A stretch of DNA of 64,000 bases from a virus: IMG/VR virus record IMGVR_UViG_3300020471_000004, positions 1-64,000 of that record; one strand, 5' to 3'. Position 1 is the first letter of the stretch, and each line of letters opens with the position of its first letter. This document shows, piece after piece, positions 18,747 to 34,828 of the stretch. The position numbers were made by a program, and so were the translations under genes. Below the pieces are notes generated by a model, which did no database searches, was not told where the DNA came from, and worked only from the letters and a program-made list of their open reading frames with translations.

Positions 18747-19826
18747 TTAGATACGCTTACCTTTAGCAACAGAGCGAACGTTACCTACCAAGAAGCTAAT
18801 GCTTTGGCTAATTAACCAACCTTTGTTAGTTTCGCCTTGGTTAGCACCGTCAGTAGGAGTAGAACGGATACCGCGAGTCGAGAACGCTGCGTGGTGTTCA
18901 GGATCAGATACAACGTAGATTTCACCTTTATCAAGAACGCGTTGGTTCTCAGGACGGAAACCGTCGGTCATAAGTTCCATACCGATTAGTGTACCGATTT
19001 TACCGTTCATTACTAGGTCGTACTTAGATACTGGATCTAAGAAAGCGCTGAACTCGCTGTTACCGATAATGTCTTTCCAGAAGTCATTAGAGATAATCGC
19101 TTTAGTAGCTGGTAAGTTCCAACCAGATACTTGTTCAGAAAGTGACGCAAGCATTTTAGGCGTAAGTTCACCAGAAATGTATGAAATGTCGTTAACGCGA
19201 CCAACAGTTGCATCAACAGCACGTTTCCAAATGCGGTCTTCTGCAACCATTACTGCTTCCATTGCCTGGTCGCGAATGTCACGTAGAAGGTCGCCAGATG
19301 ATTGGTCAAGCTCAAGTTGCGATACGCGTACCGCAGACTTAACTTCGTATTCAGCAGGTGTGAACTGACGGTCACGAATTAGCTGGTAACCCATCTGAGT
19401 TGGTGATGTTGATACAACAGCTTGAACTTCGTGGCGGAACATAGGGATACGCGGGTATTCACCTTGTTTAAGGTTGTTACCTACTGCTAGGTTACGCATG
19501 AAGCCTGCACGGTCTGCTTGCTCAACGATACGATCAGAAATCGCAGCACCAAGAGCAGCCCAGTCATCTAGGTTAGAGTTAGCTTGAGCGATCAAATCAC
19601 GGAATTCCTCAGAAGTCATTGCGTCTTCTTGAGGTGCTTCAACGATTTGTCCAGCAGAAGCCATTGACATTAACTTACCAATGTTTTGCATTAGTTCGTT
19701 ACGGTCGTGTGCGTTGATTTCACCGTTTGATGAAAGCGCCTTCATGCCGGAACCAGGTAAAATTAGGTTGTCTAGCGATTCGCCGTTTGCCATTACGTGG
19801 CGGAAGTTACGAGCAGAATGTTTCAT
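18747..19826 (-). CDS. Major capsid protein (HK97-like)
   Basis: 359 residues. An N-terminal helical region of about 90 residues is followed by a capsid core: Y-P-R-I-P-M-F-R-H near 123-131, a long segment with A-V-R-V-S-Q-L-E-L-D-Q, K-A-I-I-S-N-D-F-W-K-D, then G-K-I-G-T-L-I-G-M-E-L-M-T-D and G-E-I-Y-V-V-S-D-P-E-H-H. These follow HK97-fold major capsid proteins of giant myoviruses. The N-terminal part is expected to be removed by the prohead protease: L52-M-S-M-A-S-A58 resembles the inferred cleavage element. It sits between decoration-like and TPR-like genes, flanked by two mRNA hairpins. Confidence 0.75.
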   Translation of the reverse strand: MKHSARNFRHVMANGESLDNLILPGSGMKALSSNGEINAHDRNELMQNIGKLMSMASAGQIVEAPQEDAMTSEEFRDLIAQANSNLDDWAALGAAISDRIVEQADRAGFMRNLAVGNNLKQGEYPRIPMFRHEVQAVVSTSPTQMGYQLIRDRQFTPAEYEVKSAVRVSQLELDQSSGDLLRDIRDQAMEAVMVAEDRIWKRAVDATVGRVNDISYISGELTPKMLASLSEQVSGWNLPATKAIISNDFWKDIIGNSEFSAFLDPVSKYDLVMNGKIGTLIGMELMTDGFRPENQRVLDKGEIYVVSDPEHHAAFSTRGIRSTPTDGANQGETNKGWLISQSISFLVGNVRSVAKGKRI

Positions 19827-20619: not shown

Positions 20620-22599
20620 TTAGAAGGATTTCATTGCTCTAGAAAGTTTTGATTGGAAGTCAGAAGTTGAAACCGCAGTTGATTGCGACTCCAAAGTTTT
20701 TTCTTTTGGTACAACACGAGGTTGTAAACGTTGCTCTACAGAACTAACAGATTCCTGTCCGTCTTTACGAGCAAAAGAACTAGCAGCAACCATTTCGGCA
20801 ACTTCGTTTTGGAAGTCAGCGGACTTGCTGATAAGTTCCATCGTCTGGTCAACCAACAGCTTGTTGAATGCACCTGCGTTAGCTTCAAACACGTTATCAA
20901 TAAGCTCACGAGCATTATCAATACCTGCAGCCTTCAAGGTACTGGCCAAGCTTGAAATGATTGGGTTAGACTTTCCACGGAACACACCGTTATTCAGTCC
21001 CATGATAGAAGTAGCAAGGGCAGCACCCAGGCGTTCCATCAGTTTAGCATCGCGGTCTTTCTGGGCTTGTTCGTAGCCTGCAATTTTTGCATCCGCTTGT
21101 GCAACGATTTCTTTAGAGATAACCGTTTGCATTGTTTGTTCGTCAAAAGCAATTGACTCGAAACCGAACTGTTTAAGACCTGACTCTACGCCATCGTTAG
21201 CGATTGCTTTTAAGCAAGCTTGGCGGTAAGTAGGTTGATTAAAGATGCCACGTAGATTACCTTCGACATTTGACTCTGATGCAACTGCAACAGGAGTAGC
21301 GCCATGGAAAGCAACCCAACGGTTTTCACCAGCAACAACAGATACATTAGCTAGGCTAACTTGGTCTGCTTGTAAACCGCCTTCGGTAGAAGATGCAACC
21401 GCAGTCATAACGTCAAGAGAAGCAGAAACAGATACAGAGTCAGATTCAAGCTCTTCATCGTCATCGTCATCTTCTTCATCTTCTTCGTCATCTAGACCAT
21501 CAACGTCTTCGTCTTCGTCAGAGTCATCTTCGTCAGAGTCATCTTCGTCTTCGTCAGAGTCATCTTCGTCTTCGTCTTCGTCTTCGTCTTCGTCTTCGTC
21601 AGAAGAAGAGATAACTTCGAAATCATCGTCCAGGTCATCGAACTCGTCATCGTCCAGGTCCGAATCAATGTCGTCAAGGTCGTCAAGGTCGTCATCGTCA
21701 TCTAGATCCATATCCATGTCGTCATCCAACATAATATCATCTAGGTCATCGTCTTCATCCATAAGAAGATCATCGTCCATGTCCATAGAGGCATGTTCAA
21801 GTTCATCTAAAACTTCTGGATCGACAACGGCGGTAGAACAGCTAGGGCACACTGTAATGTCTTCGCTAGAAGAAAGAACGTGCATACCGCATTCTTCTGA
21901 ATCAGCACAAACAAAGTAATGCGCATCAGTTCCGAAACGGTCAGCAGCATCTTGCACTGCACTAGAGTTAGACTCTAATTCCTGCGCTGCAACTTCTTCA
22001 CCGTAGAAAGGACTGTAGTGAACAGAACCGCTAGAGTTAGAAATAAAGCTAACTTGGTTTTCGGTGTCTTCGTAAGCAGAAACAGGAGAATCGCCTGCTA
22101 GAATAGCCAGGTAGTCTTCTTTGGCTTCTTCAAAAGAAGAGGCAACGACAACGATACCTTGCTCGCCTTCAAGCTCTTGAACAAGAGCGCTTTCAGACTC
22201 TAGCTCGTCTTCTAAATCGCGGTCGAAATCTACATCGGTACTGCACGAAGGACAGTTAGATACAGACTCGCAAGCATCTGCGATAATGTGCGTGTTACAT
22301 TCAGAACACATGGTGTAATGAACTGACACTTGGTCTTCTTGGTCGGCACTGCTGGTAACTTCGAGATCAGTATCTAAAACCTTCATTGAGTCTCTGTTAC
22401 CAGACAGAGGATTCAAAAAAGATTTATGCGCACCAGCAACAGTAGCGATAGCAAAAGAACCGTCGGCAGAAGAAAGAACTTCTAGGGACTCTTGTTTAGC
22501 AACCATTGCGTAGTTACGGATAGCTTGTTCTCGGGTACCTGCAGTAACAACAATACCGCCAAAGCTAGGCTGAGTCGGTGATTTTTGTTTTACTGTCAT
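20620..22599 (-). CDS. Prohead scaffold / core protein, acidic, zinc-knuckle repeats
   Basis: 659 residues. Residues about 14-133 and 148-268 are a tandem duplication, each starting G-I-V-V and ending in a cysteine pair module (C98-x-x-C101 with C116-x-x-C119; C231-x5-C237 with C251-x-x-C254). Residues 272-385 are almost only Asp, Glu and Ser, typical of a prohead core. Residues 390-610 are mixed helical. LESESA (133-138), LESNSSA (208-214), LESDSV (384-389) and LESQSTA (636-642) lie at domain boundaries and look like protease sites. It is the first gene of the head unit, upstream of decoration and capsid genes. AGGAGGT-like sequence (GTACCTCCTGAGGAG) lies before the ATG. Confidence 0.65.
   Translation of the reverse strand: MTVKQKSPTQPSFGGIVVTAGTREQAIRNYAMVAKQESLEVLSSADGSFAIATVAGAHKSFLNPLSGNRDSMKVLDTDLEVTSSADQEDQVSVHYTMCSECNTHIIADACESVSNCPSCSTDVDFDRDLEDELESESALVQELEGEQGIVVVASSFEEAKEDYLAILAGDSPVSAYEDTENQVSFISNSSGSVHYSPFYGEEVAAQELESNSSAVQDAADRFGTDAHYFVCADSEECGMHVLSSSEDITVCPSCSTAVVDPEVLDELEHASMDMDDDLLMDEDDDLDDIMLDDDMDMDLDDDDDLDDLDDIDSDLDDDEFDDLDDDFEVISSSDEDEDEDEDEDEDDSDEDEDDSDEDDSDEDEDVDGLDDEEDEEDDDDDEELESDSVSVSASLDVMTAVASSTEGGLQADQVSLANVSVVAGENRWVAFHGATPVAVASESNVEGNLRGIFNQPTYRQACLKAIANDGVESGLKQFGFESIAFDEQTMQTVISKEIVAQADAKIAGYEQAQKDRDAKLMERLGAALATSIMGLNNGVFRGKSNPIISSLASTLKAAGIDNARELIDNVFEANAGAFNKLLVDQTMELISKSADFQNEVAEMVAASSFARKDGQESVSSVEQRLQPRVVPKEKTLESQSTAVSTSDFQSKLSRAMKSF
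21504..21602. repeat. Tandem hexamer and 15-mer repeat coding the acidic tract
   Basis: The plus strand repeats GTCTTC many times and GTCAGAGTCATCTTC three times within the scaffold gene. It encodes Asp-Glu and Asp-Ser-Asp-Glu runs. It is likely to vary in length by slippage. Confidence 0.85.
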
Positions 22600-22675
22600 T
22601 CTGAATCTCCTCAGGAGGTACGTTTTAACGATACAAAGATACTATTTGCATAGAAAAACACTGTAGTTCTTTGCA

Positions 22676-22688
22676 TACTATAAAATTA
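22676..22688 (-). promoter_or_regulatory. Candidate promoter element of scaffold/capsid unit
   Basis: The minus strand reads TAATTTTATAGTA, 77 bases before the scaffold ATG. The identical 13-mer occurs before the second sheath gene (59020-59032). TATAGT can serve as a -10 box, but no convincing -35 box lies at the right distance, so a phage-encoded or sigma-appropriated polymerase is possible. Confidence 0.45.
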
Positions 22689-22805
22689 ATGAAAACAAGA
22701 AAAATCGTGTAGAAATAGCAAGATTTTTCAAAATATTTTTTATACGCAAAAATCAGCTATTTTTCGCTATTTTCAGCGAATCTTAGGTATGTGAAAAGGA
22801 GCCAT

Positions 22806-22834
22806 AAAAAAGCCCCGAATTAACGAGGCTTTTT
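22806..22834 (-). terminator. Intrinsic terminator before the scaffold gene
   Basis: On the minus strand AAAAAGCC-T-CG pairs with CG-G-GGCTTTTT (one mismatch) around a 6-base loop, with a T run after the stem. It follows the stop of the 456-aa gene (22908) and isolates the capsid unit from the internal-protein unit. Confidence 0.85.
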
Positions 22835-22907
22835 GTATTACTGGAAACTAACCGAAATACCTACCAATAAGCACAGCTTTCTGCATAGCAGTATTATTAC
22901 CTGCAGA

Positions 22908-24278
22908 TTACTTTGCATCTAAGTCAAGCGAGTAGTAGTCTACTAGTTTGCCTTTAAGTTCTGCGGATACTCCTGATGAAGGCACATCATAGGAAACAAA
23001 CTTAACGCCTCTACCGTAAGCTTTGGTCACAGAAGCTTTCCACTCATTGTAGCTTTGACCTTTATTCTGGCTAGGGTTATCTAGGCGCGAGCTTTTGCCT
23101 GTATTCTTTGTGTCTGGACTACTGCTTTTTGTGCCTGAACGTTTTTTAGCCTGTTCGACTTTTATTTGGCGACTAGTAGGTGTTTTTTCTATAAGCTTTT
23201 CTGCTTTTCTAAGATCCCTTTGCAAAGGACGTATCTCGGCATTTAAGTCTCTAGCCTGTTGGGCTAATTCTTTTTTCTTTTCCTTGTTATCTGTGTTGTC
23301 CATGCGCTGCTTTATGCGCTCTACTTTTTGCTGCAACTTAACTATGTTCTTATACATTTTATAAGTATCAGGCGCTTTTACTGGAGCCTTAGGCTCCCTA
23401 GTTACTCGTGCTTTGCGTGTCTTAGAAGCAGTTTCATTAGGAGATTTCTTGCGTCCCTCAGGCACTTCTTCACCGTTCATAATACCTGCAATACGGCGTG
23501 CAGCTATACGAGGTCCTGCATAGTACTTGCGCATAGGTCCACCGCTAGCAGGCTGGTGGAATACATGCCAGCCAGGTGCAAGCATACCAGGTGAGCGTTT
23601 CTTGCGTCCCATTTTAGAACCTACGTTGCCTTTACCTCTAGCAGGAGCCGCCGATTCAGATTCAATACTTGATACTGAAATAAACGCTTCGTTGCCTCTA
23701 GAACCGTCACCGCGTGAGCTTCTACCGCGAGAATAGTCTACAAGGTCTTGAACAGCTAAAGGTATAGCACGTACATCTGAACATTCGCGGAAAGCAACGT
23801 GAACATTAGATTTAGTTAGTTCAAAAGAGTAGACACCGTCTTCAAAACCGTCATAGTTTATAGAGTAACCGCTAGGTAGCCGCGCTTGTTTAATAGCTTT
23901 ATAGGCGGCTTGGTTGCCAACGTTTGAATTTGAAGTGCTTTCTCTCTCAAAGTCTTCCTCAAAGCTTAGTGCCTCTGCTTCAAGGTCTGTAATAGACTCT
24001 GAGTAAGGACCGTCAGGGTCAATATCCCATAAACCGTCACTTGCTAGTGCCTCCATTTCCCGTTGTGCGAACAGGCGATTCTTCATGCTAGGGGTATACT
24101 TGGCTTCTTTAGATATGCGGAAAATACTAAATAGACCTGTACGGCTTTTTAATACGTAACGTCCTGGTTGAGCAAAAACTACTCGTGCTTTAGGCTTTAC
24201 TGTAGCAAGAGCCTTTTCAATAGTAGCAGGAATAGGGTGCTTAGAACGTGCGCTTTCTGAAAGTATTTGAATATACAT
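22908..24278 (-). CDS. Probable internal head protein, basic, two processing motifs
   Basis: 456 residues. It starts MYIQILSESA, one of the clearest copies of the N-terminal peptide with its S-E-S-A end, and carries I-E-S-E-S-A at 205-210, just before a strongly basic region (G-R-K-K-R-S-P). Residues 300-390 are charged and helical. An N-terminal segment (R-Y-V-L-K-S-R-T-G-L-F-S-I-F) may be a distant SH3-like strand pair. Cleavage at 210 would release an acidic-neutral N-terminal part and a basic C-terminal part. No enzyme motif is seen. It ends just before the terminator ahead of the scaffold gene. Confidence 0.55.
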   Translation of the reverse strand: MYIQILSESARSKHPIPATIEKALATVKPKARVVFAQPGRYVLKSRTGLFSIFRISKEAKYTPSMKNRLFAQREMEALASDGLWDIDPDGPYSESITDLEAEALSFEEDFERESTSNSNVGNQAAYKAIKQARLPSGYSINYDGFEDGVYSFELTKSNVHVAFRECSDVRAIPLAVQDLVDYSRGRSSRGDGSRGNEAFISVSSIESESAAPARGKGNVGSKMGRKKRSPGMLAPGWHVFHQPASGGPMRKYYAGPRIAARRIAGIMNGEEVPEGRKKSPNETASKTRKARVTREPKAPVKAPDTYKMYKNIVKLQQKVERIKQRMDNTDNKEKKKELAQQARDLNAEIRPLQRDLRKAEKLIEKTPTSRQIKVEQAKKRSGTKSSSPDTKNTGKSSRLDNPSQNKGQSYNEWKASVTKAYGRGVKFVSYDVPSSGVSAELKGKLVDYYSLDLDAK

Positions 24279-24293
24279 AGTTAATCCTTTGGT

Positions 24294-25271
24294 CTATTTA
24301 CTACGCTTAGTGCTTTTAGTGCTTTTAGTGCTTTTAGTACTACGGGTGCTTTTAGTACTACGCTCTTTGCGGGTTTTAGACTTAGGGCTTAAAGCATCAA
24401 TCTGTTTTTGGACTTTTTCTTGTAAAGCTTCCCACGCATCAACTGCCTTATCCATTTCTGCTTCAACCTTGTCATACTCTTTATTGAGTTTGTCCAGCTT
24501 TTGTTGAATTTCTTTTTTCTTAGAGCCTTCAGCGTCTCTGAGTTCGTACTCAAGATCATCAATATCATCGGCTAGGTCAATGCTTTTGTCTTCAAGCTCG
24601 GCGACCTTTTCAAACTCCTTGCTTGACTCAACACTTTGGCGCAATTCGTCTATTTGTTTTCTAGCTTTTTCTTTTTCTTCTTTTTCTTTGTACTTTTGAG
24701 GATTGTTGGCTTTATCGGCTTTCTCAAGTTCCTTGTGTTCAGCTTCAAGCTTCTTATATTTCTTTTCGAGCTTCTTCTTGGTCTTTTTAGCAGCAACTCT
24801 TTCTTCGTCTACTTCTTTTTTGTAATACTCGATTTCTTTTTTAGCGTCAGCCACTTCTCCCTTGGCGTATTCTATTTCACTTTCGTCTCCGTCCTCTTCG
24901 GCCTCTTCAAGCTCTTCTTGGGCATCTTCAAGACGTTCTTGGGCATCTTCTAACCTACGTTGGTTTTTAGTATCACCTTCTAGGGCATCTTCGGCTTCAT
25001 CTAACTCGAAACCAAGGTTTTCCATTTTAAGAGCCACAGAATCCAAGCGCTTTTCAATTGATTTAGCAGACTTATCTTTTGTAGTAGAAGCATTGTCCTT
25101 TTGAGCTTGCTTCTTGGTAGTGTTGTCACGTTCTGCCTTTGGTTTAGCTAAACGTTTGGCATGGCTGCTGTTCGGGTACTTTTTTAGGTATTTCTTTTTC
25201 TCAGAAGAACCTAATTTTGCAAACTGCTCAGCAGACAAGCCTGCACTTTCTGAATTAAGAGTAATAATCAT
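24294..25271 (-). CDS. Coiled-coil internal-type protein with STK-repeat tail
   Basis: 325 residues. It starts MIITLNSESAG, matching the N-terminal peptide, followed by F-A-K-L-G-S-S-E-K-K-K-Y-L-K-K-Y-P-N-S-S-H-A-K (about 17-40), which is shared with the protein at 33458-34828. Residues 70-300 are a long, highly charged coiled coil. The C-terminus is repeated Ser-Thr-Lys or Ser-Thr-Arg triplets encoded by 9-base repeats. It would be rod-shaped with a basic DNA-binding tail. Packaging in the head is inferred from the peptide. Confidence 0.55.
   Translation of the reverse strand: MIITLNSESAGLSAEQFAKLGSSEKKKYLKKYPNSSHAKRLAKPKAERDNTTKKQAQKDNASTTKDKSAKSIEKRLDSVALKMENLGFELDEAEDALEGDTKNQRRLEDAQERLEDAQEELEEAEEDGDESEIEYAKGEVADAKKEIEYYKKEVDEERVAAKKTKKKLEKKYKKLEAEHKELEKADKANNPQKYKEKEEKEKARKQIDELRQSVESSKEFEKVAELEDKSIDLADDIDDLEYELRDAEGSKKKEIQQKLDKLNKEYDKVEAEMDKAVDAWEALQEKVQKQIDALSPKSKTRKERSTKSTRSTKSTKSTKSTKRSK
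24309..24362. repeat. 9-bp tandem repeat encoding Ser-Thr-Lys/Arg tail
   Basis: AGTGCTTTT occurs three times in tandem, followed by alternating AGTACTACG and GGTGCTTTT units, at the 3' end of the coiled-coil gene. It codes for repeated S-T-K and S-T-R on the minus strand and is prone to slippage. Confidence 0.85.
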
Positions 25272-25279
25272 GTTTTTTC

Positions 25280-25753
25280 CTAGATTGTTTCATACAAGCG
25301 TTTAAGACCAGCCATCTTTCCTGGGTAACCTTTACGCTGTAACAAATTAAAAAAGTCTACAGGCTTCATGTTGTGCAAGGGATTACTATCTCTAGCAGTA
25401 CCGCGCGGGTGAATATAGTCTTTGACAAATTCATCAAACTCTATTTCGTACTCTACCATACTGTCAACAAACTCCAAGAACTGTTCCCAAAGTTTATCTT
25501 CGTCAGGAGTATTCAGATCCACAAGTTCAAAGGATTTGACCTCGGCAATAGGTAACGCTCGGGGGTATGCCAGTATACCGTGCCTATAGTTTCGAGAGTC
25601 ACGAATACCTGCAAAGCGTTTATCTTTTGCAGCTTTTTCTGCATCGATAAACTCTACAGGCTGGGGGTTTGTAGGCTGTGCCCCTATAGAATAAGGTCTG
25701 AATTTCAGTCCGTAATAGAACTTTTGGTTACTTAATGAAATTAGAAGTTTCAT
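25280..25753 (-). CDS. Hypothetical protein, ISLS-type N-terminus
   Basis: 157 residues. It starts MKLLISLSNQKFYYG, close to the MLISLS form of the shared peptide but lacking S-x-S-A. The middle (R-D-S-R-N-Y-R-H-G-I-L-A-Y-P-R) and C-terminal half (E-Y-E-I-E-F-D-E-F-V-K-D-Y) are globular in character. No family is recognised. It sits between the topoisomerase and coiled-coil genes with 7-8 base gaps, so it is co-transcribed with the internal-protein run. Confidence 0.55.
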   Translation of the reverse strand: MKLLISLSNQKFYYGLKFRPYSIGAQPTNPQPVEFIDAEKAAKDKRFAGIRDSRNYRHGILAYPRALPIAEVKSFELVDLNTPDEDKLWEQFLEFVDSMVEYEIEFDEFVKDYIHPRGTARDSNPLHNMKPVDFFNLLQRKGYPGKMAGLKRLYETI

Positions 25754-25760
25754 AGATACC

Positions 25761-27434
25761 TCAAATAAGCTTTTCTATGTTAGCTGGCATTCTTAAACCT
25801 AGGCGTTCATAGAAGTCTGCCAAAATAGCAGGGTCAATATAGTTAGCAATAGCAGTAGATATAGTAAGCTTACCGTTATTAAAATGGCCAAGCTCTTTGG
25901 CTACTTTTTGTAAAGCACCTTTTAACCAAGTCTCTGCGTCTTTGTTAGTTACCTGGCGTTTACGAGTAAATAAAGGACACTTTTCAATAATATCTCTTGC
26001 TAGACGTGTACCTTTAAGAGTACGGAATTTGTGAGCAGTAACCCCTTCAGGTAACATAGACTTCAAATATTTGTTTACAGCATTGGCTGTTATACGTCTG
26101 TTACCGAAAGTAAATAGAGGGTCTTTGCGCTTCTTGCCTTCGCTAAGTTGGTCAAGCAGTTCTATAATCAATTTGTTTGTGACAGAATTAGGTTTAAGCA
26201 CATGCTTTTGGACCTGTGCTTTCTTGGCTTCGTACTTTATTTCTCGGTTCTGACCTTTCTTGTAATAGTGACCTGATTGCAGTACAGTCAAACCGTATGT
26301 GGTCTTATCACCTGTCTTGCCTTCACGGGTACCTATACGCGCACTGGTTTGGTACATAACTTCTATAACAAGACACAGCAAGCCTTCTTTGGTTGATATG
26401 CCTTCTGATTTTAGTTTCTGCAACCAACGTCTTCTTACACCAGGCGCTACTTTTTCAAATTCTTCTACAATCTTAAACTTTTTGCTACGTTGCTTAGAGT
26501 TCCACCTTTCGGTGTATACCTTTAGATAGTTTTCAGCAGCAGGGGCCTTATATTCTAAAACATAGGCGTTATCTTTTTTAGGATCGTAGTTAGGATTCAT
26601 GCGAACATCGCCTGCTATACCTTTATTGCTTAACAACAAACCTTTTGAGGTATAGTAAGAAAGAGTATCGTCAATGTAACCAACAAACTGTTCAGGTAGA
26701 TTGTGATGGCGTATGCCTGCATCTTTGATAGCATCAATTACTTCACGGATGTCCAGATACGGCTTACCTGATTGGCGTACATAGTTTACAACAAAGTTTT
26801 TCCATGCTTTATTTACTTCTAGGCTAGCTTTTCGGAATTCAACATAGACAGGATTGTCTTTGTGTTTCTTGCGGAGTTCTTGACTTAGGTGGATAGTGCC
26901 GTCACCACCTAACTTGGTGCTAAGTTTAGAAACCTTTTTAAGTAAACTATCTTGGTCACTTACTTCTAGTTCAAACAGACTTGAAAGAGCTACATCGTTT
27001 AAGTCACTTACTTTGGTCTTTAGAACGTTAATCGCATTCTGCCTAGAAGTTTCTTTAGGAGACGTAGCAATTGTGTAGAACTTTTTGATTATGTCTAGTC
27101 CTGACCTAGATATAAGAGTTTCGTTCTCTATTTTAGCACGTACCTTTTTGTCTCTTACCTGCTTGGCTACTTCATACGCAGAACCTAGAAAGTCTTCGTC
27201 CTCTTCGTGTAAGGTATACCCTTTTAAGAAAAGGCTTGTCATTTCATCGTAAGCTTTTAGGTTAAACTTGTAGTGGGCCATAAACTCACGCCCTTGCTTA
27301 ACCCACTCACGGATGTCGCCAGCTAGGTTATGAGGGAATTTGTATTCAGGACTATCTGAATATGCGACAAGCAGCACCACTTTTGTAAATGCCGTTGCTA
27401 TGTCAGAATTAATTTTTGATAAAGATACTAACAT
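25761..27434 (-). CDS. Type IB DNA topoisomerase
   Basis: 557 residues from the ATG at 27432-27434, which overlaps the upstream stop as TAATG; a longer start would overlap by 36 bases more. The C-terminal half matches poxvirus/bacterial-type topoisomerase IB: catalytic R366 in S-A-R-I-G, T-Y-G-L-T-V-L, K404/K405 in the beta-hairpin, T-A-H-K-F-R471-T, H517 in E-L-G-H, and the probable nucleophile Y532 in N-Y-I-D-P. It relaxes supercoils through a 3'-phosphotyrosine. The N-terminal ~290 residues are an extra domain. It starts MLVSLSKINSD, the ISLS-type peptide of presumed head proteins, so it may be packaged and injected. Confidence 0.75.
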   Translation of the reverse strand: MLVSLSKINSDIATAFTKVVLLVAYSDSPEYKFPHNLAGDIREWVKQGREFMAHYKFNLKAYDEMTSLFLKGYTLHEEDEDFLGSAYEVAKQVRDKKVRAKIENETLISRSGLDIIKKFYTIATSPKETSRQNAINVLKTKVSDLNDVALSSLFELEVSDQDSLLKKVSKLSTKLGGDGTIHLSQELRKKHKDNPVYVEFRKASLEVNKAWKNFVVNYVRQSGKPYLDIREVIDAIKDAGIRHHNLPEQFVGYIDDTLSYYTSKGLLLSNKGIAGDVRMNPNYDPKKDNAYVLEYKAPAAENYLKVYTERWNSKQRSKKFKIVEEFEKVAPGVRRRWLQKLKSEGISTKEGLLCLVIEVMYQTSARIGTREGKTGDKTTYGLTVLQSGHYYKKGQNREIKYEAKKAQVQKHVLKPNSVTNKLIIELLDQLSEGKKRKDPLFTFGNRRITANAVNKYLKSMLPEGVTAHKFRTLKGTRLARDIIEKCPLFTRKRQVTNKDAETWLKGALQKVAKELGHFNNGKLTISTAIANYIDPAILADFYERLGLRMPANIEKLI

Positions 27435-27874
27435 TATTCTACCATATGGGCCGGAGCTTGCTTTAACCAAGCTATTGCTTCGTCTTGGCTATCAAAAGAT
27501 TTAAAATTGATACCTGACTCGTTAAATACACGCTCTATTTGGATTCTTGAATTCTTAGACATTTGAGGATCGAAAATAACAGCAACAAAACAAGGATAAT
27601 CACGAGTGCTATTTAACCATTTACGAAAGCGAACGAATTCTTTAAATTTTGTTTCGGCATCTGTACTGGACACAGTGCCTTTATCCGCGTATATGCAGTA
27701 CTTCCAATTTGTATCTCTGCTTTGCGATATAACCTTATTTATTCCATCGATTATACCACAAGCATTATCTATTCCAATAGTTCTTAGAAGTACAAGGGTA
27801 ACTATGCTAGATAGTTCCCTGTAACACACAGCGTAAGTCCCTTTAGGGCAGCTTATTGCTGCATCGTCTTGCAT
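27434..27874 (-). CDS. Hypothetical protein, STAS-like fold possible
   Basis: 146 residues. The pattern (W-K-Y-C-I-Y-A-D strand, a helix with F-V-R-F-R-K-W-L, V-A-V-I-F-D-P strand, R-V-F-N-E-S-G-I, F-D-S-Q-D-E-A-I-A-W-L-K) resembles SpoIIAA-like/STAS domains, which often end with an S-x-x-E-A-I-x-W-L helix. I am not certain. It lacks the shared N-terminal peptide, unlike most neighbours. Its stop overlaps the start of the topoisomerase gene. Confidence 0.5.
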   Translation of the reverse strand: MQDDAAISCPKGTYAVCYRELSSIVTLVLLRTIGIDNACGIIDGINKVISQSRDTNWKYCIYADKGTVSSTDAETKFKEFVRFRKWLNSTRDYPCFVAVIFDPQMSKNSRIQIERVFNESGINFKSFDSQDEAIAWLKQAPAHMVE

Positions 27875-27880
27875 AGTGCC

Positions 27881-28819
27881 TCACATTGATTTGTAGCTAC
27901 CTGAATACTGACCGTCAACTAGGTATTGGTTAACAAAATATTTTTCAGCTATTTCCCAACCTACAGGGGTAGTAAATCCTCTAACAGATTGACCGTGAAC
28001 CATAGCTTCTACCAGTATAGCAAAAGCTTCATCCCACCAAGGGTTAGCATACCCAGGGTGGTTGAATTGGTCTTTGTGTAGGCGCTTGGCAGCTACTTGC
28101 TTCTTGAACTTTATTACATCGCTATTCTTCAACACATTCTTTATAGCATAGTGCGCAAGTTCGTGAGTTAGAACCTGTGCAATACCGTCTACAGAAAGGC
28201 TTCCGAATATACGAGTTAACTGACCTGGGTTCAGTATAATATAAATATCATACGTACCTCGAGTACGGTTCATGCTGTGAGCAATACAGCTACCTATCTC
28301 GTTAGAAATGCCTAAGCTGATTGGGTACTTGAACTTTATTTTAGTACCTAATCGACCTAGAGCAATTTCTATGTTTCGTCTAATGCTACCGCTTGCAGGC
28401 AATACAGTACCTACGAATATAGAAGTAGGTTTCTGTATAAACTGAAAGTTAACTTTAGCTGAGCCTGCAATAGTAGGTGCTACCTTTTTAGGTGACGGAG
28501 CAGTCACCTTAGGTTTAGGTTTTATATCAGATGCAGATTTAAAAGTTTCATCAAAAGATGAACTCCCTGCCAGCACGTCTTTACCTTGTATTTTGCCTAA
28601 ATAAGGCTTAGACGTGGTTACCAGCTCTCTTGCTTTCTGCTCACTAATAGGAACTAAAGCAGCTACTTGGTTATCAACCAAAATAAACTGGTCTTTGTTC
28701 TTGACCAGACCGTATACGGCCCTGCCTTCTAAATTAATTCGAGTAGTAGCACCGTCAACACTGATAGGGTTGCCTAAATACCTATACCAACGCCCAGCAT
28801 GAAGTACATCAATTTTCAT
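27881..28819 (-). CDS. Zinc metallopeptidase with SH3-like N-terminal module
   Basis: 312 residues. The N-terminus is MKIDVLHAG, then W-Y-R-Y-L-G-N with G-R-A-V-Y-G-L-V (residues 11-70), a degenerate copy of the SH3-like module seen at 13917-14603 and 40585-42285. A linker (95-125) leads to a peptidase-like domain with H219-E-L-A-H223, the zinc-binding HExxH, and W-W-D-E-A-F-A-I-L-V-E-A near 261-272 supplying a possible third ligand (E264 or E271). HExxH peptidases cleave peptides or proteins. It is followed closely by the STAS-like and topoisomerase genes. If packaged, it could process host or viral proteins on entry. Confidence 0.65.
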   Translation of the reverse strand: MKIDVLHAGRWYRYLGNPISVDGATTRINLEGRAVYGLVKNKDQFILVDNQVAALVPISEQKARELVTTSKPYLGKIQGKDVLAGSSSFDETFKSASDIKPKPKVTAPSPKKVAPTIAGSAKVNFQFIQKPTSIFVGTVLPASGSIRRNIEIALGRLGTKIKFKYPISLGISNEIGSCIAHSMNRTRGTYDIYIILNPGQLTRIFGSLSVDGIAQVLTHELAHYAIKNVLKNSDVIKFKKQVAAKRLHKDQFNHPGYANPWWDEAFAILVEAMVHGQSVRGFTTPVGWEIAEKYFVNQYLVDGQYSGSYKSM

Positions 28820-28834
28820 GGCTTTTCCTTAATC

Positions 28835-30763
28835 TTACGACCAGATACTTACGATACCTGACTGTCTAAAACCTTCTTTGTCAACAACTACTCGGAACTC
28901 TGCTGAACGAGAGATAGGCGAGTAGTAACCAAGTATTTCGCCACTTCCGCCTAAGCCAGTTACAGTTACAGACCCTTCTTCCTCAGCATCGATCCAGTCA
29001 GGCAGATTGTCTTCTTCTTTCAAGGTAGAAGGTAACGAATCAATAAGTTTTTTGATCTTGGCGTAACCTAGACCTTTAACACTGGAGCCTGCACCTTCTT
29101 CTGCTTCATTCATTATCTTTCTACCTAAGGTAGGAGTAATTACAGAGTCCAGCAGTTTAAAAGTATTTTTCGGCAATACATTAGTATAACCTCTTGCTAG
29201 AGAGACCCCTGACTTTAAGCTTATTGAATCAACCTTTAAGCTCTCTACAAAAGCAGTTGCTTTTTTGATTCCAGCAGGAGTAAAGTTAAACTTGTTACCA
29301 GCAACGTAAATGCCTTTTAACCCTTTAGCAGCACCTGGTTTAGGCAAAATTACGTAAGGGCTATCTCCGTCGATATTTACTTTCCAAGTATAGCGCTCTA
29401 CCTCTCTGCTATTGTAATAAGATACATTACCTGTGCCGAAAACAGTAGAAAGAAGTTTTATGGTATCTTCCTCAGAAGTGCTACCTCTTTGCTTAGAGGT
29501 AGCCAGAGGCTTTTTTGGAGAGTTTATTATTCCCTCTTCTCTTAAAGTAACTAGTAGTTTTTTAACAGAGTTTACTAGGCCTTTATCAAACACTCTTATT
29601 AAAGAAGGGCTAGAGTCATTTAATAAAAGAGCCGCTACTACCTGAGCGTACGGGTCATAGTTTTCTAGATCGAACAGTATGCTCTTGGCCCGTTTTTGAG
29701 TAAGGCCGGTGTCAGTCATTAGTTTTGTAAGACCTTTTTCTACAGAAGTACGACTACCGTTAGTAAGCATAGCTCTTAAGGGCTTAACGTCAGCAGGGCT
29801 TGCATCGTTGCCTCGAGAATCAGTAAGACTAACAGTATCATCACCATCCAGGTATTCGTAAACGTCACTTATTTTAGAATTTGTTTTGTCTGCTATAACA
29901 ATAGCTCTTAAGGTTTCTTTGACTGACTCTTGGTTAAAAGTAAGTCCCTTACCGATAGAAGCCTCTAATACCTTCTGGTACTTGGGACTTAGTTTCTTTG
30001 CTACTAGACCCGCGACAGCCCCTACCTTTACAGGCGCAGAACCAGGCTTTTGTGTTCGCATATTAGGAGTAATAGTAGCACCAGAAAGCTTTTGTAAAGC
30101 AGCGTTAGGCTTGATACTTTTGATGTTTGACATGATTGCAGAGAAGGTTTTGGCACTAGCCAGCTTTTTGACATTGGCAACCATCTTCTTACCGGCAGCA
30201 GAAGCAGCGTACTTTTCTAACGCTGCGGTATCTTTGGTTTTTAGAGCACCGATTAGGTAATCGATACCCTTGGTGTTTAATTGTTTTTCTTTAGAGTAGT
30301 CTTCTAGCTTAGACAAGATAGAAACACCTTTTGATCCGAAAAGGATCTTGGCATTTTCTTGTTGCTTTTTAGAAGCCGATTCAGACTCTAGTCCGTCTTC
30401 AAGGCTTGCAGAAGCAGAAGCTTTTACTTCCATCATAAACTTAGAACCTGGCCCTCCGACCGGTTTAACTCCACCTACTTTTAAACCTGCATCTTTCAAA
30501 GCTGCCTTAAAAGAACGTGAATAGTTTTTCTCGTTCTGGAAGTCGGCACTCATAGTTTTAGGATGGAAAGCAGATCGAACAACTGCGCCTTTTTCACCAG
30601 GCGATACACTAAACATAGCAGTAGGTATGCCTGCATCTTTCAAAGCAGCACGTACTTGTTTACCAATACGGCCTGCTTCGGCTTTTGTGATAGTATTGGA
30701 AGCTTTTTTAACCGAGCCGGAAAGAGCCGGCATGTCTTGGGTGTTAGAAACATCAATCTTCAT
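28835..30763 (-). CDS. Large internal-type protein, 642 aa
   Basis: It starts MKIDVSNTQDMPALSG. Residues 20-115 form a compact basic alpha/beta unit (I-G-K-Q-V-R-A-A-L-K-D-A-G-I), K-A-S-A-S-A-S-L-E-D-G lies near 114-124, and LESESA at 125-130 looks like a processing site. The rest is basic, helical and of low similarity to anything I know, ending with a beta-rich domain. A T4-like TATAAATA lies upstream, after the gap that begins this unit. Cleavage at 130 would release a 130-residue N-terminal part. Confidence 0.55.
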   Translation of the reverse strand: MKIDVSNTQDMPALSGSVKKASNTITKAEAGRIGKQVRAALKDAGIPTAMFSVSPGEKGAVVRSAFHPKTMSADFQNEKNYSRSFKAALKDAGLKVGGVKPVGGPGSKFMMEVKASASASLEDGLESESASKKQQENAKILFGSKGVSILSKLEDYSKEKQLNTKGIDYLIGALKTKDTAALEKYAASAAGKKMVANVKKLASAKTFSAIMSNIKSIKPNAALQKLSGATITPNMRTQKPGSAPVKVGAVAGLVAKKLSPKYQKVLEASIGKGLTFNQESVKETLRAIVIADKTNSKISDVYEYLDGDDTVSLTDSRGNDASPADVKPLRAMLTNGSRTSVEKGLTKLMTDTGLTQKRAKSILFDLENYDPYAQVVAALLLNDSSPSLIRVFDKGLVNSVKKLLVTLREEGIINSPKKPLATSKQRGSTSEEDTIKLLSTVFGTGNVSYYNSREVERYTWKVNIDGDSPYVILPKPGAAKGLKGIYVAGNKFNFTPAGIKKATAFVESLKVDSISLKSGVSLARGYTNVLPKNTFKLLDSVITPTLGRKIMNEAEEGAGSSVKGLGYAKIKKLIDSLPSTLKEEDNLPDWIDAEEEGSVTVTGLGGSGEILGYYSPISRSAEFRVVVDKEGFRQSGIVSIWS

Positions 30764-30821
30764 AGTTTTATTTCCGTTGTTTATCTAGTTACTTTGTATA
30801 AGTATAGCAGAATTTTGCTAT

Positions 30822-30829
30822 TATTTATA
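30822..30829 (-). promoter_or_regulatory. T4-type late promoter core (TATAAATA)
   Basis: The minus strand reads TATAAATA, the exact T4 late -10 consensus, 59 bases before the 642-aa gene's ATG. Beside it is TAGCA-(6)-TGCTA, an inverted repeat that could bind a regulator, and TATACT, a possible sigma70 -10 box. It lies in one of the few intergenic gaps (30764-30862). Confidence 0.4.
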
Positions 30830-30862
30830 GACCGACTTTTGTACCTTAATGTTAAAGATAGG

Positions 30863-31411
30863 TTAACTCTTGTTTCGCGCTACCTTTAGTAAGGCTTTGG
30901 CAGATTGCTCCAACATTTTCAGTCGGTCAGCCTGTGTCAAGCCTAGGTGTTTGTTTTTAGAAAAACTAGCCTGCCAAGAAGCTAGAAAACTATTTGTAAG
31001 GTCTTCTTGGGCTTCTGATAGACGAAGTTTTTTATCTTGCTCAGCTTTGGCAGATTCTATGCCTGCTTTAAAGAAAGCAAGTATTGAATTCTTTCCTCTG
31101 GAAGATAGATAAGTATCTATGATTTCAAATAAATACTCGAAATCTTCACCCATCTCAAAGTAACGGTCTAATACAGTTTCGTTACGGTCAAGGTATTCTG
31201 AAATTTTAGGTACAGCAGTACGTAACTGGCGCATATTTGTAATGCGTAGCGTAGAGATAATTTCCTGTAGTCCTAATAAGAAGTTGCTTTCGTAAGCAGG
31301 AGTAAACCGTTTACCGCTATACATCATCAAGCTCATTATATTACACAGCTTGGCAACTTTAGGCTTTTCGAACAAGGAACTTATTGAACGCTTAGTTAAA
31401 TCAATTTTCAT
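30863..31411 (-). CDS. Hypothetical internal-type protein, helical
   Basis: 182 residues starting MKIDLTKRSISSLFEKPK, an MKIDL-type start. It is helical throughout, with leucine-rich amphipathic segments (E-I-I-S-T-L-R-I, Y-L-F-E-I-I-D-T-Y-L) and a charged C-terminal helix. No family is recognised. It directly follows the protease gene (2-base gap), and the gap after it holds the candidate late promoter. Confidence 0.55.
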   Translation of the reverse strand: MKIDLTKRSISSLFEKPKVAKLCNIMSLMMYSGKRFTPAYESNFLLGLQEIISTLRITNMRQLRTAVPKISEYLDRNETVLDRYFEMGEDFEYLFEIIDTYLSSRGKNSILAFFKAGIESAKAEQDKKLRLSEAQEDLTNSFLASWQASFSKNKHLGLTQADRLKMLEQSAKALLKVARNKS

Positions 31412-31413
31412 AG

Positions 31414-32217
31414 TTACCTCATTACTGCCATGACTTGGTTATGGTTACTATGGTTTGAAACATAGGCAGGATCTTCTACAGCGCTGTTTTCAAAACCAGT
31501 TATTTGGTGCACATACCTGAAAGCGATCTGGTTTGCATCGTTTACATAAGTAGGCTTTTGTAGAACAGTATGACTACATACATTACGTAAATTATCTTTA
31601 TATACCGTATGTCCACAAATGCTACAGGTGTAAGCTTGATACCACATACCAATACTGAATGTATTTAGGTCCTCTGTTAGAATGCGGTTAGCAAGAACAG
31701 GGTCTTTGGTTCGGTCAAAAGCAAGTAACTGAATAATACGAGCATGGTTGCCACGGAACTGAGGTAACGACTTCATGTATACGTCAAGAATAACACCTTT
31801 AGCTTTGGTAATATCCTTGTTGTCATGCTCTTGGTGAGTAGGTTTTCCTTTCCACGTTTTGTATGCCAGCATACCTAAATCAGGACGAAAGCGTAGTGCC
31901 TCTTGAGTAGACAAACAATCACCGTTGGTGTTAGGTACGTCAGTTATAACACTAGGCACAGGCACCATCACGTAGTCACGAAGATTAGGGCTTATCTGAT
32001 AATGTTCAGATGCCATTGGTAACCAAGTGTTTGCATCTATTACCATGCTTTCTGAGGCGCCTGTTGCACTAGGCTTAAAAGTGATTTCGTTTGATTTACC
32101 AATGTCTTTTAACTCGATAGCTTTGTGGCGTACGTCACGTTTGGTAACATCGAAACTAGAGCTTTCAAAGCTGTTCTGTTCATTGGGAATAATAATGTCT
32201 TTTAAATCAAGTTTCAT
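31414..32217 (-). CDS. Prohead protease (gp21-like)
   Basis: 267 residues. It matches large-phage prohead proteases: P95-N-T-N-G-D near the start of the core, G-K-P-T-H-Q-E-H131-D-N with the candidate catalytic His, and N-T-F-S188-I-G with the candidate catalytic Ser, followed by a metal-binding C198-x-x-C201...C214-x-H knuckle typical of this subfamily and a C-terminal E-D-P-A-Y segment. It matures scaffold and internal head proteins before DNA packaging. Its own N-terminus has F-E-S-S-S-F (17-22), like the LESSSA of the neighbouring 413-aa protein, so self-processing is likely. Confidence 0.8.
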   Translation of the reverse strand: MKLDLKDIIIPNEQNSFESSSFDVTKRDVRHKAIELKDIGKSNEITFKPSATGASESMVIDANTWLPMASEHYQISPNLRDYVMVPVPSVITDVPNTNGDCLSTQEALRFRPDLGMLAYKTWKGKPTHQEHDNKDITKAKGVILDVYMKSLPQFRGNHARIIQLLAFDRTKDPVLANRILTEDLNTFSIGMWYQAYTCSICGHTVYKDNLRNVCSHTVLQKPTYVNDANQIAFRYVHQITGFENSAVEDPAYVSNHSNHNQVMAVMR

Positions 32218-32219
32218 AA

Positions 32220-33461
32220 TTAACCTACTCGGGTTACTTCTATAACTAACTGGTTATTAGCGTTACGACCTGCGTTAACGTTAATATCTTGAGTAGAAAC
32301 TCTGCCACCGCGCGAAGCACCTTTGTTTACGAAAGTGAAAGAACCTACTTCACCTTTCTCGAAATCAGGAGTTGGTTTTGACGTAAGAGAAGACAGACTG
32401 TTTGTACTAATAGCTTTGGCTACTTTCTTAGCTATAGCTGCACTAGTATTGTATTCAACAGAGAATGAAGTATTGCCTATACTATAAGAAGAAGGCAATC
32501 TTTTTGAATTGGTTATCTTTAGGTATAGCTGACCTTTGCCTTTTGAAAATCTGCCTGCACTTTGGCCTTTTCTGCTAGGTCTAGGCTTACGAGTAGTAGG
32601 ATCTCTGGTAATAGTTTCTTTACGAGCAGGCACATCGTAATCACCTAGTTCTACGTCACCGCTAGTTTGGGCATTACGTATAAGGTCTAGTGAGAAACGA
32701 GTAGGTTGCTTAGGTTCAAAAATTGAAGTGATAGCAAGAGGAGTCTGTTTGCCTGACTTGAGCATACTAGCAGCCTGTTTAGGTGTAACTCGGATCATGC
32801 GACCATCACCAAACGTGCCACCACGGCTCTTGAATGCAGTACCTTGCTTCCAGCCGTCTGTAGAAAAGGCAGGAGATGCAAAATCAATACCGTATTTAGA
32901 TTTGATAGAACTAACAAAGCCAAGTTTTTTGCTTTCAAGCAACGACACTAGGTCTTTTATCAAATCATTCAGGTTGAAAGGATAGCGCTGACCAGGTTTA
33001 AGCGTCTTCAAGAATTCTTCGGTTGCTGCCAAGTTAGAAAGAATTTGGACATTCTTTTTGGTCATGCTGGTACGAGTGTTTGCACCGAACAAGGCAATAG
33101 CCGCCAACTTAGCCAGATCCGCAGAGTTGTCTTGGGCAACCTTCTTGGGGCTAGGTTTGCGTGTAGGCTTTTTAGTACCAGTAGCTGCATCTTCCGATAA
33201 GATTTTATGGTCACGTTTAAGTTGGTTAAACTTGTTTCGCGTTATCTTGAACTTCCAGTACTTGTTTAGCTCCTCGTCAAAGTCAAACAGGAATATACCT
33301 TTAGGTGAATTAGAAAGGTAGAAAATATCGCCACGTCTTAGAGCCAGTTCGTGAGTAGCATCTTCTATTTCAATTTTCTTTTTAGCTTTCATCTGAATAG
33401 ACCCTTTAATAGGCGCTTTAACTTTAGTTGCAGATGAACTTTCTAGTAGATTTATTTTCAT
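32220..33461 (-). CDS. Internal head protein, LESSSA targeting peptide
   Basis: 413 residues. It starts MKINLLESSSATKVKA, one of the clearest copies of the peptide, followed by H-E-L-A-L-R-R-G-D-I-F-Y-L (about 38-52), which resembles the start of the SH3-like module. Basic segments (G-T-K-K-P-T-R-K-P-S-P-K-K, R-K-P-R-P-S-R-K) flank central globular parts. No enzyme motif. It lies beside the prohead protease gene (2-base gap) and overlaps the upstream gene by ATGA. Confidence 0.6.
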   Translation of the reverse strand: MKINLLESSSATKVKAPIKGSIQMKAKKKIEIEDATHELALRRGDIFYLSNSPKGIFLFDFDEELNKYWKFKITRNKFNQLKRDHKILSEDAATGTKKPTRKPSPKKVAQDNSADLAKLAAIALFGANTRTSMTKKNVQILSNLAATEEFLKTLKPGQRYPFNLNDLIKDLVSLLESKKLGFVSSIKSKYGIDFASPAFSTDGWKQGTAFKSRGGTFGDGRMIRVTPKQAASMLKSGKQTPLAITSIFEPKQPTRFSLDLIRNAQTSGDVELGDYDVPARKETITRDPTTRKPRPSRKGQSAGRFSKGKGQLYLKITNSKRLPSSYSIGNTSFSVEYNTSAAIAKKVAKAISTNSLSSLTSKPTPDFEKGEVGSFTFVNKGASRGGRVSTQDINVNAGRNANNQLVIEVTRVG

Positions 33462-34828
33462 AACATGTTCCTGTTAATCGTATGCTTTACCCAAGTGCAA
33501 CATTCTGAATAAGTTTGCCTAATAGGGTTAATTAAAGTAAGTTGGTTAGAGTTTACTACAGTATACGGTTCTTTTTCGCTGCGACCTGTCCGGAAAGCAC
33601 TCTCAGTAAAACCGTCATAAAGTTTCGCTACCCAGCTACGTGTGTTTGCTCCTGTACCCTTGATTTTAGGGTCAGATTCAATACGACCAATATGGTCACC
33701 GCCATACATTATATCGTACTTGGTTCTTTCGGCATCAGTCAGCTTACGTTGAGAAGGACATACTCTAAAACTAATACGGGGCCTAGTGGCCGATTCAGAA
33801 TCGAGGCTATCTAGTTCACTAGGTATATCTATGTATTCTTCTTTGTCATCCTCAAGAAACTTATCAATATCTTCTTTACTAGGAACAAACTTCTCCTGTT
33901 CCATATCGTGACGTATCTCCAGTAGACCTATCTTTTTGGACAAAGTATCAAAGTCTATGCCTGTTAACCAATCCATGTAGTGTTTGACAAAACGTTCCAT
34001 GGTAGGGTTTGTTTCAGGGTCAGACAAGTCTTCTTCGTATTCTTCATCCTCTTCTTCAGGTTCTTCTGCACTAAGGCTTGACCATCTAGAAAGAGATACA
34101 CGATCTAACCAAGCATCAAATTCCTGCTTGTACTCGTCTTGGGGAGTAAGTAGGCGTGATACACTGTTAGACTCTAGTTTTTGCTTGGAATACTCTTGAA
34201 GGTCTTTGTAGTTAGAAGGGCCTAAGAAAGCACTTAGCAATACTTTGCTTACGCTTTTGCCAATCTTTTTCCAGCGACCTTGTCCTAAAGTATTCTCATT
34301 GACAGCATCTAACAGCTTTAACGCAGAGCGACCGCCTCTGCGGTCACTGTCTTGTGCATCTTTGGCACTATATTTACCTTTAAGAATCTTACCGGCAAAG
34401 CCGTTGAACTCTCTACGACCTTGTGGTGAAAACTTGCTGTCCATAACCTGGACAACTTTCGTAAAGCTATCTTTTATTTTCTTAAAGTTTTCTTTCATGT
34501 CCATGCGTACAGCAGGAGCGTTTACTTCAAGACGGTCAGTTTCTTCCTGTACAAGAGCTGCTTCTTGGGCTCTAATCTCACGAGACTTAGGTAACTGCTC
34601 TTTCTTAACAGGTTTCGCAGGTTTCGCTTTAGGTCGAGCAGCTTTACGAGTGGTCTTGTTAGAAGGTTTAGCTTTAGGCTTTTTAGGCTCATTGATTCTA
34701 AGCTTACCTGATTTAACACCTTTAGCGTATTTGCTATTAGGGTGCTTTTCTATGTAAGCTTTTCTTCTAGCTGGACCTGCCTTTTTCCACCAGTTAGATT
34801 CTTGTGCAGATAAGGATATAAGTGTCAT
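33458..34828 (-). CDS. Internal head protein with two processing motifs
   Basis: 456 residues from the ATG at 34826-34828, which overlaps the upstream glycosyltransferase stop as ATGA. It starts MTLISLSAQESNWWKKAG, then R-R-K-A-Y-I-E-K-H-P-N-S-K-Y-A-K (about 21-36), also present in the coiled-coil protein at 24294-25271. Basic residues dominate 37-90; LESNSVS begins at 218; an acidic stretch lies near 255-275; LDSESA is at 342-347 and separates a compact C-terminal domain (350-456) from the rest. Cleavage at 347 would free it. Confidence 0.6.
   Translation of the reverse strand: MTLISLSAQESNWWKKAGPARRKAYIEKHPNSKYAKGVKSGKLRINEPKKPKAKPSNKTTRKAARPKAKPAKPVKKEQLPKSREIRAQEAALVQEETDRLEVNAPAVRMDMKENFKKIKDSFTKVVQVMDSKFSPQGRREFNGFAGKILKGKYSAKDAQDSDRRGGRSALKLLDAVNENTLGQGRWKKIGKSVSKVLLSAFLGPSNYKDLQEYSKQKLESNSVSRLLTPQDEYKQEFDAWLDRVSLSRWSSLSAEEPEEEDEEYEEDLSDPETNPTMERFVKHYMDWLTGIDFDTLSKKIGLLEIRHDMEQEKFVPSKEDIDKFLEDDKEEYIDIPSELDSLDSESATRPRISFRVCPSQRKLTDAERTKYDIMYGGDHIGRIESDPKIKGTGANTRSWVAKLYDGFTESAFRTGRSEKEPYTVVNSNQLTLINPIRQTYSECCTWVKHTINRNML

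Follow-up and report, generated by a model that had tools for sequence, protein, structure and literature searches.

The prohead proteases of T4, phiKZ, 201phi2-1, and SPN3US have been reported to cut after a glutamate (PMC9026906, PMC10052503, PMC13282480). In T4, the first 10 residues of the internal protein IPIII are needed, positions 4 and 7 for targeting and positions 8 and 10 for processing (PMC9026906), and in P1 the protein DarA is both cleaved and packaged in the head (PMC5512222, PMC12810830). Polyvalent-protein domains also occur in effectors that phages carry in their heads (PMC5512222). Here, we analyze a window of 64,000 nucleotides, positions 1 to 64,000 of the 232,692-base IMG/VR virus record IMGVR_UViG_3300020471_000004, in which a short element of the LESxSA type is repeated at the domain borders of head proteins. 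The nearest relative of the protease and the major capsid protein encoded in the window is Phage NCTB (76 and 72% identity, respectively), followed by PaBG, Lu11, and jumbo phages of Erwinia and Dickeya; this whole group has been described as one clade (PMC7412058). To judge from sequence, the repeats are probably recognition sites of the phage's own gp21-type prohead protease, which would read serine or alanine instead of glutamate, and some of them would belong to T4-like capsid-targeting propeptides. The original prediction, which took them for prohead protease sites, still offers the best explanation, although its consensus has been redrawn and the sites are found to end N-terminal tags on many proteins as well.

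Every element listed in that prediction is present in the sequence in its place, and so is the copy at the start of sheath 1 (MLATSNSSAG) that it had attributed to chance. The strict pattern [LI][ED]SxS[AV] occurs seven times in 12 head-module proteins (4,593 amino acids), with a mean of 0.10 in shuffled sequences and none of 1000 shuffles reaching seven; one of these copies, LESSSA in the N-terminal tag encoded at 32220, had not been listed before. A motif density equal to chance in non-head proteins had been named as one result that would count against the prediction, and in the remaining 15,922 amino acids of the window the strict pattern does not occur. Beyond the window, three other stretches of this genome with 18,179 amino acids contain two copies, both N-terminal (at residues 13 and 14); one of them, GLESSSA, lies on a helicase-like protein of 1,934 amino acids (positions 75997-81801 of the genome; L069:11997-17801), whose homologues in NCTB and PaBG also carry the core described below near the N-terminus. 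Because the strict pattern was taken from the window proteins themselves, NCTB is the fairer test. In this phage, [LIVMF][EDQ]SxS was counted 10 times in the 14 proteins of the head module (4,442 amino acids; shuffled mean 1.40, 0/1000 shuffles) and 23 times in 73,913 amino acids elsewhere (shuffled mean 18.6; p = 9.5e-6). Finally, in a blind pattern search the top-ranking pattern was A.AS for PaBG, Lu11, HRDY3, and GR7B, V.AS for Xhv12, and S.S.A for AD1, and nothing alike was found in Motura.

The putative scaffold is laid out as what look like two repeats of a domain plus a zinc ribbon, followed by an acidic tract, a coiled coil, and a C-terminal helix. Its AlphaFold model is of low confidence (mean predicted local distance difference test, pLDDT, 60.6). 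The elements at residues 133, 384, and 636 fall in stretches of pLDDT below 50, in agreement with the proposal that they lie between ordered regions, but the one at 208 does not. In an alignment of nine phages (HRDY3, with a scaffold divided between two genes, and six distant phages are not among them), the sites come back at equivalent borders, with variable letters around them. The C-terminal site has been kept with serine in seven of the nine (LESQSTA, MQSQSS, VESQSSA, VQSQSSA, IQSQSSA, VESQSSS, and VTSQSSS) and with alanine in PaBG (EATAS) and Lu11 (VAVASA). The LESxSA consensus is thus too narrow, since its L-E is dispensable; at the level of sequence, the core conserved across the PaBG, Lu11, and NCTB family is S-x-S or A-x-A, usually followed by serine or alanine. 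A wider sample was built from 85 viral-contig loci found via the capsid protein, of which 32 (duplicates and distant loci omitted) were tried and 31 yielded a scaffold frame; with 10 named phages these made 41 scaffolds, thinned to 35 non-redundant ones (10 named phages and 25 viral contigs). All 35 carry the core 10-30 residues from the C-terminus (shuffled mean 6.6, maximum 16/35 in 2000 shuffles), a count that leaves out 14 distant loci with a scaffold frame, several of which (e.g., L159 and L170) lack such a site; in a stricter set the figure is 17/17 (shuffled mean 3.15, 0/5000). Counted over their whole length, the 17 scaffolds of this strongly non-redundant set have 70 copies of SxS[SA], with 25.2 expected, and 140 of AxA[SA], with 44.1 expected, and show no enrichment of the mixed pairs SxA[SA] (27, 30.2 expected) and AxS[SA] (28, 29.4). 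The C-terminal site was typed as S-S in 21 of the 35 scaffolds and as A-A in 14, by a procedure that favored same-letter pairs and left mixed pairs to a separate shuffle test. GC content was considered as the cause of the type and rejected, given that AD1 (0.502) has serine, and Lu11 (0.505) and L139 (0.403) have alanine. In the six distant named phages, the site, read by eye, is x-T-A-[S/A] in five.

These counts bear on the alternative that the elements are merely Ser/Ala-rich flexible linkers between domains and involve no proteolysis. Three of the four scaffold sites do lie in low-confidence stretches, and both residues are abundant in the scaffolds, but local shuffles that keep the composition remain far below the observed S-x-S/A-x-A counts, mixed pairs show no such excess, and composition does not explain why the same core is found at protein N-termini, so this alternative is improbable. 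As to the scaffold gene itself, the N-terminal half of the protein (residues 8-270) seems to have arisen by tandem duplication of a unit made up of a small alpha/beta domain and a Cys-rich module resembling a zinc ribbon. The family (20620-22599 in the window; L002:17294-19231) is labeled "ATPase" in PHROGs and in many records, a name that looks wrong. A Ser-rich open reading frame of 224 amino acids (21245-21919, plus strand) is antisense to the acidic tract, mirrors its Asp/Glu codons, and is unlikely to be a gene.

The core has been found not only inside proteins but also at their N-termini, where it ends a tag of 6-12 residues of the form M-x-(hydrophobic)-x-(hydrophobic)-[S/A]-x-[S/A] that is carried by unrelated proteins. 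In the window, such copies, which the original prediction did not include, start the genes at 13917, 14607, 22908, 24294, 32220, 33458, 39947, and 40585, and weaker ones those at 25280 and 25761. At least 10 genes of one region of Lu11 start with MKIQLAVA, MKIQLATA, MKIMLAVA, or the like; the HRDY3 orthologues of tagged Lu11 genes start with MEMMLALA and similar sequences, and in JA29 the tags read MELLISLSK, MEILVSISA, and MEIEVSLSA. Since A-x-A is kept while the spelling is genome-specific and the synonymous codons vary, selection acts on the protein. For a statistical test, the type of each phage was fixed from its scaffold, and residues 2-11 were searched for the matching core with a hydrophobic residue ahead of it, in gene sets made by a simple gene caller that include false antisense frames (for the window phage, the window plus 60 kb). 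In five phages pooled, PaBG not among them, matched-type tags occur in 64 of the 1,543 proteins, as compared with 110 of the 6,172 segments that served as controls (p = 1.5e-7), and mismatched-type tags are not enriched (18 vs. 58, p = 0.25); pooling with PaBG gives p = 2.6e-6 for the matched type. The individual values are 4.5e-4 for the window phage, 0.039 for NCTB, 0.10 for JA29, 0.0041 for Lu11, 0.016 for HRDY3, and 0.73 for PaBG. The tags are kept between orthologues: among 100 pairs of the window phage and NCTB, eight share the tag, nine and three have it on one side only, and 80 have none, at least two of the eight being tail proteins picked up by the loose pattern; for 121 pairs of Lu11 and HRDY3 the numbers are nine, four and four, and 104. 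A Sec signal peptide was rejected as explanation, the hydrophobic stretch, by eye, never exceeding about five residues, and so was a start signal at the DNA or RNA level, upstream bases and synonymous codons being variable.

Among the tagged proteins of the window, Pfam domains score above the cut-off for DarA_C (25280), KMPT-N (13917 and 40585), and topoisomerase IB (25761). Hits below the cut-off are SprT-like and KMPT-N in 27881 and, in a protein of Lu11, an ADP-ribosyltransferase domain; for four more proteins of the window, the Pfam search gave nothing above the cut-off. In PaBG, gp83, with the tag MLIKINLLEAVAA, is one of 14 identified virion bands (PMC7412058). Another example is PaBG gp202, a helicase of 221 kDa (TLNSLSAA), which is homologous to the 1,934-residue helicase of the window genome and, with a matching mass, is the largest virion band (Table 1 in PMC7412058). 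A search of the open-licence literature for virion proteins of Y3 and AD1 yielded nothing usable. The tagged run of Lu11 (L061:15656 to L062:11313, about 154-170 kb) encodes mostly unknown proteins and is possibly a cassette of packed effectors. A small, very acidic protein (35-37% Asp/Glu) of the window genome (L071:9105-9509) and NCTB (L037:9071-9514) starts with MQMIISLSS and MNILISLSS, respectively.

The major capsid protein provides a further substrate candidate. Of 38 capsid proteins, 24 contain [SA]x[SA][SA] at residues 66-80 (shuffled mean 7.3, 0/2000) and 22 the same-letter version (shuffled mean 4.0, 0/2000). In PaBG, the core is found at residues 71 and 78 of 368, and maturation reportedly removes about 20% of the protein (PMC7412058). 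The sequence SMAS at residue 56 of the window capsid protein was set aside as a less likely site, as it occupies a helix-like place common to many relatives whose likely site is around 70. These data are relevant to a second alternative, in which the elements are docking or sorting motifs that a head protein binds and nothing cuts. The genome-specific spelling of the tags would suit such motifs, and the targeting signal of P1 DarB lies within the first 30 residues (PMC9024508); the recurrence of the sites between scaffold domains and their place in the capsid protein, where the PaBG loss would fall, fit cutting better, and we consider docking alone unlikely, to about the same degree as uncut linkers.

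The presumed enzyme is encoded at 31414-32217, in a gene that matches PHROG 18299, head maturation proteases (E 1.5e-92); a Pfam search of the protein gave no match. A histidine and a serine that may be catalytic, H131 and S188, are the same in all 16 sequences of an alignment. The best match of the protease model (mean pLDDT 65.6) among solved structures is T4 gp21 (5jbl_B; Z 8.1 over 141 residues, root-mean-square deviation 3.2; VIA), and the next matches are unrelated MCE domains (Z 5.3 and less). The herpesvirus proteases come below several of these (varicella-zoster virus Z 4.2, human cytomegalovirus Z 3.0-3.6); since they rank under unrelated domains, the fold match alone is no sign of kinship, and the absence of a protein from the match list rules out no assemblin-like or other protease family. 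A sequence comparison of the protease with solved structures found no relative, the best hits being zinc fingers at E 0.038. The model supports a gp21 fold with moderate confidence. The element FESSSF of the protease had been proposed as a further site, and the column S-x-S/G-F is indeed kept in relatives, but it could be structural rather than a place of autocleavage. The NCTB protease is annotated as "Phage endolysin," a name that looks wrong.

The reading of the elements as protease sites suggests the following scheme. The protease would cut after a small residue, with P3 and P1 both serine or both alanine, and probably before serine or alanine. The second small residue is the most likely one to precede the scissile bond, as distant phages preserve the final two letters (A-S) best, although the protease may instead cut behind the first. 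Cargo proteins would be brought into the prohead by their N-terminal tags, and once the prohead is complete, the protease would cut the scaffold at its interdomain sites and at the one conserved site just ahead of the C-terminal helix, severing this helix (probably the capsid-binding tail) and reducing the scaffold to fragments that could exit the head. The propeptide of the capsid protein would be cut where a site exists, and the tags would be clipped at their S-x-S/A-x-A end, as in the capsid-targeting propeptides of T4. A bolder version, which we hold only tentatively, is that of a glutamate-independent code in which P3 equals P1, and in which the protease changes from one form to the other in concert with all of its substrates. 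In such a code, the tag version of eight residues would sort many DNA-handling and anti-host proteins into the head, the packed proteome could be read from sequence, and the Ala-Ser form, which resembles the herpesvirus scaffold site, may predate the glutamate form.

Several observations weigh against this scheme. The capsid proteins of the window, NCTB, AD1, Yen9-02, JA29, and nine IMG/VR loci, 14 of the 38, have no exact site, which for the window phage is a real gap in the model. Foldseek with the protease model, whose pLDDT is low, returned no match at E ≤ 0.001. In the blind pattern search, S.S was not the top-ranking pattern for the window, NCTB, Yen9-02, JA29, Y3, or Yoloswag. Mixed-letter motifs are present in the C-terminal stretch of 17 of the 35 scaffolds (shuffled mean 6.4), an excess partly due to overlapping runs such as SQSSAS, and on the capsid-protein tree the serine and alanine types need only about two switches. 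As for the tags, their enrichment is not significant in JA29 (p = 0.17 and 0.10); in PaBG, whose scaffold is of the alanine type, residues 2-15 are not enriched for A-x-A (p = 0.73) but to some extent for S-x-S (p = 0.022), and in HRDY3 the mixed A-x-S is also enriched (p = 0.0064). Moreover, the processed virion protein gp191 of PaBG has no N-terminal tag and only AASA at residue 203. This protein (L054 from 7475; record 139631-140629), which has been found in several virion bands (PMC7412058), is histone-like and rich in lysine and alanine, with KAATKAAKP repeats. The weakest alternative, that ordinary T4/phiKZ sites cut after glutamate (L-x-E, S-x-E) are concealed in LESESA, is very unlikely, because, for all the resemblance of the protease to gp21 and the glutamate preference of the four proteases cited above, the glutamate positions are not conserved in LESNSSA, LESDSV, LESQSTA, MLISLSA, VATASS, and MKIQLAVA. 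This lack of a conserved glutamate also supports a specificity unlike that of the T4, phiKZ, and SPN3US enzymes, in line with the earlier suggestion of a different or extended consensus.

The features of the window are collected in the Table. For the gene at 33458, the residue numbers 218 and 342 count from the ATG at 34828 (227 and 351 from the GTG at 34855). The ATG codons at 34828 and, for the gene at 25761, at 27434 are the likely true starts, not the upstream GTG at 34855 and TTG at 27470.

Table. Head genes, internal sites, and N-terminal tags in the 64,000-nucleotide window (aa, amino acid).
Feature	Position	Strand	Evidence or relatives
Putative head scaffold, 659 aa	20620..22599	-	Adjacent capsid gene, PHROG 20988, family alignment, AlphaFold model; role probable from these
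LESESA, internal scaffold site, aa 133	22186..22203	-	Aligned with LESDSS in NCTB; within pLDDT <50 stretch 127-145
LESNSSA, internal scaffold site, aa 208	21958..21978	-	Near NCTB LSSESSA; outside pLDDT <50 stretches
LESDSV, internal scaffold site, aa 384, end of acidic tract	21433..21450	-	Near VESDSS (NCTB) and VVATASS (Lu11); pLDDT <50
LESQSTA, C-terminal scaffold site, aa 636, ahead of terminal helix 646-658	20674..20694	-	Same place in 9/9 aligned phages
Prohead (head maturation) protease, 267 aa; H131 and S188 invariant	31414..32217	-	PHROG 18299, alignment, match to T4 gp21 (5jbl)
FESSSF, aa 17 of protease, possible autocleavage site	32152..32169	-	S-x-S-F / A-x-G-F column kept in relatives
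Basic protein, 456 aa, with N-terminal tag and one internal site	22908..24278	-	
Tag MYIQILSESA of 456-aa protein	24249..24278	-	NCTB paralogue MKIVSISA
IESESA, internal site, aa 205 of 456-aa protein	23649..23666	-	NCTB relatives LESESA / IDSESA
Tag MIITLNSESA, 325-aa gene at 24294	25242..25271	-	
Tag MKLLISLSN (weaker copy), DarA_C-domain protein 25280-25753	25727..25753	-	
Tag MLVSLSK (weaker copy), topoisomerase IB 25761-27434	27414..27434	-	Start re-chosen by simple ribosome-site rule
LESESA, internal site, aa 125 of 642-aa gene (28835-30763)	30374..30391	-	
Tag MKINLLESSSA, 413-aa gene at 32220	33429..33461	-	
Tag MTLISLSA, gene at 33458 (start 34828)	34805..34828	-	
LESNSV, internal site, aa 218 of gene at 33458	34160..34177	-	NCTB homologue MESNSS
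LDSESA, internal site, aa 342 of gene at 33458	33788..33805	-	NCTB homologue LESESG
Tag MLISLSA, KMPT-N protein 13917-14603	14583..14603	-	NCTB orthologue MLISLSA
Tag MKINLDLSSESV, 109-aa basic protein 14607-14936	14901..14936	-	NCTB MKIFIDIPSESV
Tag MKVQLQSNSA, protein 39947-40582	40553..40582	-	
Tag MLISESA, KMPT-N protein 40585-42285	42265..42285	-	
Major capsid protein	18747..19826	-	No clear S-x-S/A-x-A site near residue 70

If the proposed code is correct, a member that reads serine or alanine would widen the known specificity of the gp21-type fold, whose described members in T4, phiKZ, 201phi2-1, and SPN3US read glutamate, and a link to the herpesvirus scaffold site would be possible. 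The tag would make it testable which jumbo-phage proteins, among hundreds that are unknown, travel inside the head and are delivered into the cell together with the DNA, and the serine and alanine types would be a natural experiment on the joint change of a protease and dozens of its sites. No description of an S-x-S/A-x-A code was recognized in the open-licence literature, as far as its accessible text goes. Taken by analogy, the system would work like the head maturation of T4 with a different code, and its tags like the targeting signals of T4 and P1. As in the gp21/gp22/gp23 system of T4, the protease model best matches gp21 and the scaffold has several proposed sites, and the N-terminal propeptide of gp23, of about 65-70 residues (PMC5694885), would have its counterpart in the family capsid site near residue 70; unlike T4, which cuts after glutamate, the proposed core contains none, and the window capsid protein is without a clear site. 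The targeting sequence of T4 IPIII and Alt and the signal of P1 DarB are likewise very short N-terminal elements on unrelated internal proteins, although the tags described here end in S-x-S/A-x-A, are spelled differently, and mark a larger, genome-specific set of proteins. The proteases gp175 of phiKZ and gp245 of SPN3US would share with this system the setting of jumbo-phage head maturation, the many substrates, and a small P3 residue (S/A-x-E and A-x-E), but they need glutamate at P1, where serine or alanine is predicted here. Finally, the maturation site of herpesvirus assemblin, a protease with a Ser-His-His triad, has the consensus V/L/I-x-A before serine. The conserved scaffold site near the C-terminus, ahead of a tail, is alike in both systems, as is the x-T-A-[S/A] form of the distant named phages; in the structure comparison, the herpesvirus proteases rank below several unrelated MCE domains.

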